Below, in pieces: positions 3,216 through 59,098 of a DNA stretch of 64,000 nucleotides. Source of the DNA: Proteinivorax tanatarense. GTDB taxonomy: Bacteria; Bacillota; Proteinivoracia; Proteinivoracales; Proteinivoracaceae. The translations under genes and the position numbers were made by a program. Where the stretch lies: positions 930,001 through 994,000 of the forward strand of contig NZ_CP158367.1 in the NCBI RefSeq assembly GCF_040267685.1, read 5' to 3'. The notes below the pieces were generated by a model. It saw nothing but the letters and a program-made list of their open reading frames with translations, was not told where the DNA came from and ran no database searches. The stretch's first letter is position 1, and every line of letters starts with the position of its first letter.

Positions 3216-3239
3216 AAAAACATAATTAATAATTAAAAA

Positions 3240-3457
3240 CCGTGAAAGGGAATGAGTACACAAAACTGCTTTTTAAAGAGAAAAGGATCCTTGGCTGAAA
3301 GATTCTTTATAAGCTATTGTGGAAGCTGTCCTGGAGGTGTTTGGCTAAAGCCAAACCGGTGAGAACCGTTAAAGTGTAAGAGCGATTCTAACTATAGAAT
3401 AAATTGGGTGGTACCGCGGCCTGTTCGTCCCTGTTGTATTTCAACAGGGACTTTTTT
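3240..3457 (+). ncRNA. T-box leader (tRNA-Ala sensing) of alaS
   Basis: The T-box sequence GGGTGGTACCGCG lies at 3406-3418. It is followed by a terminator with a 10-bp stem (GTCCCTGTTG at 3427-3436, CAACAGGGAC at 3442-3451) and a T run. Upstream, an AGAGA motif and a GGCTG distal-loop-like segment mark stem I. Two GCT (alanine) triplets, at 3313-3315 and 3325-3327, are candidates for the specifier codon; I cannot decide between them by eye. Uncharged tRNA-Ala should bind and favour antitermination, raising alaS expression. Confidence 0.93.
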
Positions 3458-47534: not shown

Positions 47535-47845
47535 GCAAAAACGTACCAAGCATTTTACCAACCTCTAACTTCTCACCTCTCACTACCATTACCCCATATT
47601 TTATCGGAGTGTTACCTATGTTCTGACTGAACACTGAACACAACCAGGTTTTAATTGTCAATTGTCCATTGTAAATTAGCCCTTGACCTCCTGCCCAAAT
47701 CATACTTGCTTTCCCACTATCATTTGCGCAAGTTCTTTAATTCACTTTCAAAATCTTGCAGGATTTTTTCCCTACTTATAGAATAATAAATTAAAATAAC
47801 TGTAATATATATTAAACATATAATAACAGAAAAATTAAGAGTGAA

Positions 47846-48035
47846 TGATCCTGCGGGGAGAGATTTGCGTATTTTATGCAAACGCCGAAGAAGAAAGCTG
47901 CCCTTGGCGAAGGGTGGTGAAACTTTCAGGTAAACAGACCCAAGGGGGACACGTCTCTGGAGAGCATAATGCACCAAAGGGGAAAAATCTCTCAGGTATA
48001 AGGACAGAGGAAAGCCACCTAGGCTTTCCTCTTTT
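47846..48035 (+). ncRNA. Tandem glycine riboswitch of the gcv operon
   Basis: Aptamer 1 has GGGGAGAGA, CGCCGAAGAAG and CTTTCAGGTAAACAGACCC; aptamer 2 has CTGGAGAGC, GCACCAAAGGGG and CTCTCAGGTATAAGGACAG. These are the conserved words of both halves of the glycine riboswitch. The expression platform is an 11-bp terminator (AGAGGAAAGCC at 48006-48016 with GGCTTTCCTCT at 48022-48032, then T). Its 5' arm overlaps the end of aptamer 2, so glycine binding should prevent termination. Confidence 0.96.
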
Positions 48036-56210: not shown

Positions 56211-57007
56211 ATATATGATATGAATAAAAGGGGAATTTACAATGGACAATTGACAGTTAAAATCAAGGCCTAAAATGCCCCAATCCACCACCGATCGTCA
56301 ATCCTGAGTTTGCTGAAGGAACCATCTCATAAGGGCGCAGGACCCACAAAACGGACAGAAATGCCAACTACCTGTCCCCACTTTCCAATCTCCCATGCCT
56401 AACTGTAGGGGGATCTCTGTGTCCACCCTTGATTGGAGATTAAAATCCACTCCCCAATTAGCATCCATTTACTGATGTGGTCGGCAAAAAGACCGCCCAT
56501 TACCTCTTCGAGAGGATACCTTTACCAACCTCTGGCCTACTAATACCTATCACCACTACCGCCCAGCAGATAAGCACCAGCCAGTTCCAAAACCGCTCGT
56601 TTCACAGTGGCCAATTGCATTTGGACTTTTGGTATTAAATGAGTTTTTCTTTTAGGGCCCATTTATAGCAGATAGGAGAAAGTCCAAAGGCGAATTTACA
56701 ATTTACAATGAACAATTAAGATATGGTAACGGAATCCAATCTCAGACTTCTTATTACCTATCACTACCGACCCAGCATGTAGCTAATTTCAAAATCCGTG
56801 GGCATTACCATTAAAGACTTACGCTTTTCCTATCCAACAACCCAACCATCTTCTATCCAACTAAACCTTTAAAGGTTTCACCCCACAATTACCAAATTTT
56901 TAATAAAAAAGAAGGGATATTGTGCCATAGTCTTGAAATAAAATATATAGAAGTGGGTAAATCTTCTTGATTAAGTAAAAAATAAAAGTAAATGGTGGGA
57001 TTGTATT
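56211..57007. repeat. Gene-free stretch made of decayed repeat fragments
   Basis: It contains a family D tract (56232-56275), a decayed family B copy (56295-56345), the family F duplicate (56340-56432), another D tract (56691-56720), a family A right-end fragment (CGACCCAGCATGTAGCTAAT at about 56763) and a CCAACCATCTTCTATC word shared with 54676-54693. No gene is supported. The aroQ promoter must lie near the right edge (TTGAAA near 56933), but no good -10 pairs with it. Confidence 0.6.
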
Positions 57008-58519
57008 ATGAGATTTTTAGTTATTCACGGCCCAAATCTTAACATGTTAGAAAAACGACCCCAGGAAATTTACGGAAAAAAGTCCCTTGAGGAAATAAAC
57101 AACATTATAAAAGATTGGTGCATAAAAAATAATATTCAGGTTGATATAATACAATCAAATTATGAGGGAGAAATAATTGATTATTTGCATAAGTTTCAGA
57201 GTTATAACGGAATTATCATAAATCCTGGTGCTTATACCCACTATTCTTATGCCATAGCCGATGCGGTGGAGCTGGTCACTGTCCCTGTTATAGAAGTTCA
57301 CCTATCAGATATTAAAAGTCGTGAAGACTTTAGGCGTAAATCTGTAATTGCTAATCACTGCTATAAACAAATTTCAGGGTTTGGATATCAAAGTTATATT
57401 TTGGCTTTGCAAGCAATTATTCATAAAATTGAGGAGGTAGATTCCATGTCTTACTATAGAACTGCGGAACTTAAAAAAGCTATGAAAGAAAAAGATTTAG
57501 ATTCCATGTTAATAACCCAGCCACAAAATCGTCAATACATAACTGGCTTTACTGGCAGTAGTGGCTATGTTTTGCTTACCCAGCAAAAAGACTACTTTTT
57601 TACAGACTTTAGGTATGTAGAGCAGGCTAAAGAGCAAATTGAAAACTTTGAAATCATCAAACATGGTTTTCAGCCATTAGAAGAAATTTTTGAGTATATA
57701 AAAAATGCTGATGTCAACAAAATTGGGTTTGAGGAGCAATTTTCTACCTACCATGTGTATCAAAGGTATAAAGAGACTTTTAAAGGTGTTGAATTAGTTC
57801 CCTCTGGTCCTTTAGTTGAAGAAATAAGGAAAGTTAAGGATAAGACAGAAATTGAAAAAATGGAAAAATCTATAGATATTGCTGTATCTGCTTTTGAGCA
57901 TATTCTAGGGTTTTTAAAGCCGGGAATTAAAGAAATTGACGTGGCTTTAGAACTAGAGTTTTTTATGAGGAAAAAAGGAGCTAGTGGCTTAGCTTTTGAC
58001 ACAATAGTTGCATCGGGTCATAGGTCAGCACTACCCCACGGCATAGCTTCTGATAAAGTTTTGGAGCAAGGTGATTTTGTAAAAATGGACTTTGGTTGCG
58101 TCTTTAATGGATACTGTTCAGATATAAGTAGAACAGTGGTGTTAGGCAAAGCAACCGATAAACAAAAGAAAATTTATGATACAGCTCTTAAAGCTCAGCT
58201 AGCAGCTATAGAAAATATTAAATCAGGAGTAAGTGGAAAAAAAGCAGATGACTTCGCAAGGCATATCATTACTGAAGCTGGTTATGGTGATAAGTTTGGG
58301 CATGGACTTGGACATGGAATTGGAATGGTAGTGCACGAAAATCCTAGAGTATCTCCAAATAGCGAAGATATCTTAAAAACAGGTAATGTAGTTACAGTAG
58401 AGCCGGGTATTTATATACCTGAGTATGGCGGAGTTAGAATTGAAGATATGCTGGTTATCACTGAAGATGGGAATAAAAACTTAACAAAAGCTACAAAAGA
58501 ATTTATAGAAATAACTTAA
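57008..58519 (+). CDS. AroQ-PepP fusion: type II 3-dehydroquinase joined in frame to Xaa-Pro aminopeptidase
   Basis: The frame has 503 residues. Residues 1-146 are a complete type II dehydroquinase (VIHGPNLNMLEKRPQEIYG, QSNYEGEIIDYLH, NPGAYTHYSYAIADAVE with the active-site His, EVHLSDIKSREDFR). Residues 147-503 are a complete M24 aminopeptidase P (MSYYRTAELKKAMKEKDLDS; metal ligands in MDFGCVFNGYCSDISR, GHGLGHGIG and VEPGIYIPEYGGVRIED). In most Firmicutes these are separate neighbours, aroQ-pepP-efp. Here no stop separates them, but GAGGAGGT plus ATG (57446) remain at the junction, so PepP may also be made alone. Confidence 0.9.
   Translation: MRFLVIHGPNLNMLEKRPQEIYGKKSLEEINNIIKDWCIKNNIQVDIIQSNYEGEIIDYLHKFQSYNGIIINPGAYTHYSYAIADAVELVTVPVIEVHLSDIKSREDFRRKSVIANHCYKQISGFGYQSYILALQAIIHKIEEVDSMSYYRTAELKKAMKEKDLDSMLITQPQNRQYITGFTGSSGYVLLTQQKDYFFTDFRYVEQAKEQIENFEIIKHGFQPLEEIFEYIKNADVNKIGFEEQFSTYHVYQRYKETFKGVELVPSGPLVEEIRKVKDKTEIEKMEKSIDIAVSAFEHILGFLKPGIKEIDVALELEFFMRKKGASGLAFDTIVASGHRSALPHGIASDKVLEQGDFVKMDFGCVFNGYCSDISRTVVLGKATDKQKKIYDTALKAQLAAIENIKSGVSGKKADDFARHIITEAGYGDKFGHGLGHGIGMVVHENPRVSPNSEDILKTGNVVTVEPGIYIPEYGGVRIEDMLVITEDGNKNLTKATKEFIEIT
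57431..57448 (+). promoter_or_regulatory. pepP: Internal ribosome site and ATG of pepP within the fusion
   Basis: GAGGAGGT (57431-57438) is 7 nt before ATG (57446-57448), which is in the same frame as aroQ (438 nt = 146 codons from the aroQ start). This is a normal strong initiation site, retained although the upstream stop is missing. Confidence 0.8.
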
Positions 58520-58540: not shown

Positions 58541-59098
58541 ATGATTTCACCAAACGACTTTAAAACAGGACTGACAATAGAGTATGAAGGATCAATATAT
58601 ACAGTTGTAGATTTTCAGCATGTTAAGCCAGGAAAGGGGGCAGCATTTGTAAGAACAAAACTAAAGAATGTTGAAACTGGTGCTATAATGGAAAAAACGT
58701 TTAATCCTAAAGAAAAAGTAGGAAAAGCACATATCGAGCGTACTGAGATGCAGTTCTTATATGCTTCCGATGAAGACTATATTTTCATGGATACCCAAAC
58801 CTACGAACAATTAACTTTATCTAAGGATTACCTAGGTGATGCAACAAAATATTTAATTGAAAATATGAACATAACAGTGCTAATTTATAAAGATAAACCT
58901 ATAGGTGTTGATTTACCCAATTTCGTAATTTTAGAGGTGAGGGAGACAGAACCAGGGATTAAAGGTGATACTGCTTCAGGAGGTTCTAAACCTGCTACTA
59001 TGCAAACTGGCTTGATAGTTAATGTCCCATTTTTCGTAAACGAAGGTGATAAATTAAAAATTGATACTAGAACTGGGGCATATATAGAAAGAGCTTAA
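58541..59098 (+). CDS. efp: Translation elongation factor P
   Basis: The protein has 185 residues and three beta-barrel domains. It relieves stalling at polyproline. The modified-Lys loop is [15 protein letters not shown]; the C-terminal barrel has [25 protein letters not shown]. The ATG follows AAGGAGG. It follows pepP at 21 nt, the conserved Firmicute order, so the three activities form one operon. Confidence 0.97.

Follow-up and report, generated by a model that had tools for sequence, protein, structure and literature searches.

The window analysed here, a 64,000-nt stretch covering positions 930001–994000 of the 3.09-Mb single-contig genome of Proteinivorax tanatarense (G000), carries a fused aroQ-pepP gene at 57008–58519 on the forward strand. 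Read directly, the gene is a single open frame of 503 codons followed by TAA, as the first-pass annotation had described it. Its first half (57008–57436, +; residues 1–143) is a type II 3-dehydroquinate dehydratase (AroQ), in which DHquinase_II (PF01220) covers residues 3–137 (1.3e-53) and the match to the aroQ model TIGR01088 exceeds the curated cut-off. The second half (57446–58519, +; residues 147–503) is an M24B Xaa-Pro peptidase composed of Creatinase_N (PF01321, residues 151–276) and Peptidase_M24 (PF00557, residues 283–486), and would measure 357 aa if translated from the internal start described below. All three Pfam matches lie far over their cut-offs. The next gene after the fusion, in a conserved neighbourhood, is efp, encoding elongation factor P (58541–59098, +).

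Both halves retain their catalytic residues, another feature on which the first reading proved correct, with every checked position invariant relative to homologues: N10, R17, Y22, N72, H78, E96, H98, R105 and R109 in the AroQ half (alignment with 30 relatives), and H344, D361, D372, H436, H443, E465 and E479 in the peptidase half, where the five metal ligands (D361, D372, H436, E465 and E479) are invariant in 34 relatives. The proposed identity of the peptidase needs a narrower wording: an Xaa-Pro peptidase it is, but its closest counterparts are of the YqhT/PepQ type and not the 440-residue PepP of E. coli. The nearest solved relative is the Xaa-Pro/proline dipeptidase of B. anthracis (3q6d; 48% identity, TM 0.97), and this half hits NCBIfam equivalogs of three kinds (PepQ, YpdF-like and PepP), each below its own cut-off. 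On these alignments, YqhT/PepQ-type Xaa-Pro peptidase appears the safer label, and PepP is used below as shorthand. When phage records were searched with the fusion, matches were confined to the peptidase half, at <60% identity, with none spanning 80% of the query.

The AlphaFold model of the fusion (mean pLDDT 94.8) consists of two confident domains, with the C-terminal helix of AroQ (residues 128–144) and the N-terminal helix of PepP (residues 147–161) separated by two residues; confidence dips, to 66, in the block 141–150 alone. Calculated masses are 57.0 kDa for the long form and 40.1 kDa for the internally started form.

The junction preserves what looks like a complete translation start. 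An internal Shine-Dalgarno (SD) sequence, GAGGAGGT (57431–57438, +), lies within codons 142–144 (E-E-V) and is followed after a spacer of 7 nt by an in-frame ATG (Met147; 57446–57448, +), so the intact motif, spacer and start codon reported at first reading are indeed present. In alignments, this ATG coincides with the position at which PepP begins in unfused relatives, the modelled N-terminal helix of PepP begins there, and it is the inferred start of free PepP. SD strength was scored against the standard anti-SD, which was assumed and not read from the organism's own 16S rRNA, in 464 kb of the genome (the window and 20 further sampled stretches; ORFs of ≥200 codons). On this scale the junction SD, at −12.9 kcal/mol, is the best among 1717 interior in-frame ATGs, and it would rank among the best 11% of gene starts (stronger than 89%), a start set that is generous in taking the best site per gene. 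The SD of the long form, GGTGGGATTGT (56994–57004, +), reaches −6.0 kcal/mol, is weaker than ~94% of scored gene starts, and remains weaker than the internal SD with each of four anti-SD lengths. In the one other genome of the genus in our collection (G001), the internal SD is identical and the sequence GGTGGGATTG of the aroQ SD is preserved, with pairing energies of −13.5 and −8.5 kcal/mol, respectively, again on the assumption of the standard anti-SD.

The strength of this SD, together with its unchanged sequence in G001, supports translation of free PepP from the internal start, which we predict with good confidence. The five SD and spacer codons, for which synonymous alternatives exist (GAAGAAGTA is a synonymous version of GAGGAGGT), are synonymously identical in the two species; at the gene's own synonymous rate such identity has a probability of ~0.07, which is not significant. 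RNA folding gave no sign of special accessibility at the internal SD (unpaired 0.45 vs 0.47 for the rest of the ORF). Elsewhere in the genome, a minus-strand gene (L131; C1:557307–558281) also holds a strong internal SD (−12.2 kcal/mol) with an in-frame ATG (AAAAAGGAGGACAGTGTAATG), the ATG preceding the last 53 residues of a 325-aa protein. We considered this locus as another start retained after fusion and rejected it, as the protein is family-wide and involves no fusion; it is possibly a second dual-start gene, and it indicates that strong internal SDs occur elsewhere in this genome too.

Upstream of the fused gene, a non-coding element, GATATTGTGCCATNGTCTTGAAAT (56916–56939, +), is near-identical in G001 while the flanking DNA differs, and among the loci examined it was found solely upstream of the fused gene in these two genomes; it is possibly a promoter or regulatory element. 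A candidate internal promoter (TTGGCT-17-TAAAAT, 57401–57429) was discarded, such matches being no commoner than in shuffled sequence. The window additionally contains a T-box leader at 3234–3435 (Rfam, 112 bits) and tandem glycine riboswitch aptamers at 47845–48009 (Rfam).

The same fusion, sought in related genomes, is present in G001 as an identical 503-codon frame with no stop and 83% protein identity. Over the fused gene, dN between the two species is 0.11 and dS 2.3, which is saturated (NG86), with dN of 0.13 for the AroQ half and 0.10 for the PepP half. Low dN against saturated dS indicates that both halves, and the frame joining them, have been kept over a long divergence. From the codon for Lys140 to the internal ATG, a single third-position base differs, and the peptide IIHKIEEVDSM is identical. 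These data bear directly on whether the open frame could be a sequencing or assembly artefact masking a frameshift or stop. A one-base change near 57430–57440 would indeed split the genes, the +1 frame having a TAG within GGAGGTAG, and an error hiding a stop near 57440 had been raised from the outset as a way in which the fusion might prove spurious. Yet G001, an independent sequence differing at 17% of amino acids, matches it precisely in both frame and length, which excludes such an error and leaves the artefact with a negligible chance of being the explanation.

How the fusion may have arisen is suggested by the remaining three genomes of the family (G002, G003 and G004), in all of which aroQ and pepP are unfused. 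Measured from the ALxA anchor of AroQ, the pepP ATG lies 28 nt away in the unfused family members and 30 nt away in the two species with the fusion. The aroQ frame of G003 and G004 reads through the pepP ATG to a stop at ATG+12, and that of G002 ends at a stop starting 4 nt upstream of this ATG; in all three genomes the pepP SD lies within or touches the 3′ end of aroQ. Direct reading of both fused species revealed an out-of-frame TAG at ATG+12, the position of the aroQ stop in G003 and G004. The ancestor of the genus would thus have had adjacent aroQ and pepP genes, tightly coupled or overlapping, with the pepP SD in or against the aroQ 3′ end, and a net change of +2 nt (or −1) in the segment linking the AroQ domain to the pepP SD and ATG would have placed both in a shared frame, with loss of the aroQ stop. 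On the evidence of five genomes, such a minor frame adjustment in closely packed or overlapping genes seems the simplest origin of the fusion. The internal start would then have survived because its SD was already part of the last stretch of aroQ or abutted it. The claim that a fusion rarely keeps a strong internal start consequently needs qualifying: given the ancestral arrangement its retention is less surprising than first suggested, since joining such a pair in frame tends to keep the SD, and the resulting layout is documented (PMC11005335, PMC11899642).

The fusion itself is rare. Among the matches listed for 398 genomes sampled across the phylum, a full-length stop-free match occurred only in G000, G001 and a member of another class, G099, in a survey that registers fusions aligning as one match and that very long linkers could escape; within the 83 genomes of the class of G099, G099 alone had a full-length fusion match. 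Four other candidates (G015, G024, G057 and G409), picked up by equal open-frame lengths for both halves, were rejected on direct reading, which found stops in the aroQ frame. The G099 fusion (L074; C1:510368–511912) resembles that of Proteinivorax in joining the same two domains in frame, with efp downstream. It differs in its longer, GC-rich linker and in a junction with no in-frame ATG, GTG or TTG, a reading from one genome in which a sequencing error is possible, and in the congeneric G326 and G400 the two genes are separate. By these differences, the sequences identify the G099 fusion as independent.

Gene content indicates that the long form is probably required. Neither a second aroQ nor a type I dehydroquinase was detected in the P. 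tanatarense genome, the search for the latter having matched in 7 of 14 control genomes, and the genes for chorismate synthase (aroC), dehydroquinate synthase (aroB) and EPSP synthase (aroA) are present side by side at ~1.3256–1.3291 Mb. With no stop between the domains, a single dehydroquinase, and aroB, aroA and aroC in place, the cell probably depends on producing a functional long form; by the same gene content, the AroQ domain must function within the fusion, barring cleavage or reliance on aromatics taken up from outside. The first-pass annotation had proposed a bifunctional AroQ-PepP protein together with free PepP. Its first component is strongly supported by the uninterrupted frame and the sole dehydroquinase, while free PepP is likely, with the caveat that conservation of the SD codons taken alone does not reach significance.

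Taken together, we consider it likely that reframing of a tightly spaced pair produced a fusion from which two starts yield the fused protein plus free PepP. Ribosomes initiating at the weak aroQ site would make the 57-kDa AroQ-PepP, the sole dehydroquinase of the cell, with the two domains folding and working as beads across a join of about two residues, while ribosomes at the strong internal site would give rise to free 40-kDa PepP, probably as the more abundant product. AroQ on its own would appear only if released by cleavage. What the sequence itself shows is the fusion, its conservation, the strength of the SD and the lack of a further dehydroquinase; that two products arise, in what ratio, and that both enzymes are active, we infer. 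The principal competing view is that the gene yields the fusion protein alone and that its internal SD and ATG are a relic of the unfused state whose EEVDSM residues are simply tolerated. The modest statistics of SD-codon conservation are compatible with it, as is the G099 fusion, which implies that a fused pair can be viable without free PepP. However, the junction SD outranks most scored gene starts and is identical in the two species despite synonymous saturation, and a site of such strength should initiate unless masked, for which no special structure was found; we therefore regard a relic as unlikely.

Two further alternatives concern the fate of AroQ. Were the long protein cleaved at the junction, AroQ and PepP would act apart and the fusion would be functionally silent; the roughly two residues between the helices are the sole low-confidence spot of the model, which speaks for cleavage, but the linker is very short, no protease site was recognised, and the junction is unchanged between the species with no evident cleavage motif, making this quite improbable. 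Internal SDs can promote programmed frameshifting, as in prfB and dnaX, and the TAG at ATG+12, found in both species, would provide a terminator for AroQ freed in this way. Inspection by eye, though, found neither a slippery heptamer nor a stop-codon-assisted slip site at the junction, and we give frameshifting hardly any weight. A more speculative extension of the two-start reading, which we hold to be doubtful, is that the starts set a long-to-short ratio for the assembly of mixed particles. Type II dehydroquinases form an AroQ dodecamer, which in the case of fused chains would have to accommodate twelve PepP domains. In the mixed particles, AroQ oligomers would bear PepP dimers in which free PepP supplies the missing partner. 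If so, the genus would keep this layout because chains that were all long could not build both oligomers together.

In-frame internal starts are a documented gene layout (PMC11005335, PMC11899642). In Salmonella, 26 confident N-terminal proteoform pairs have been described, in which the alternative start has a stronger SD than the annotated one and which are enriched in oligomeric proteins (PMC11005335). Pairs such as those of infB, clpB and mrcB (PMC11005335) share with aroQ-pepP one gene and frame with two starts, a stronger internal SD and oligomer-forming products; in the fused gene, by contrast, the boundary separates two whole enzymes of unrelated function that a fusion event has brought together, and the short form exists in other organisms as an ordinary enzyme in its own right. 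Cas11b, translated from within cas8b (PMC11899642), likewise has an in-frame internal start that frees a C-terminal domain as a separate protein, but both Cas products join one complex, whereas for AroQ and PepP a common complex is a possibility. Compared with the separate aroQ-pepP(yqhT)-efp genes of Bacillota, the enzymes, their order, their position before efp and the SD between them are alike, and the difference lies in a fused gene lacking the aroQ stop, with one shared frame. We found no report of an AroQ-PepP fusion in the open-access library that was searched, a scope outside which most subscription journals fall. What is described here is hence a rare fusion with a known type of dual-start layout: operon neighbours have fused with an internal start retained, dual in-frame starts being already established.

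The aroQ-pepP fusion does not open a long-standing question. It does carry a warning for annotation, as gene callers report one 503-aa protein and miss a probable free peptidase, the single gene probably yielding a two-enzyme protein plus that peptidase. The Proteinivorax fusion and the G099 fusion, which has no internal start, offer a natural comparison for learning whether a fused gene depends on also making its downstream protein in free form. In Proteinivorax, the case suggests that a tight or overlapping operon pair can fuse and yet keep its downstream protein, because the SD of the downstream gene was already in or against the upstream one.
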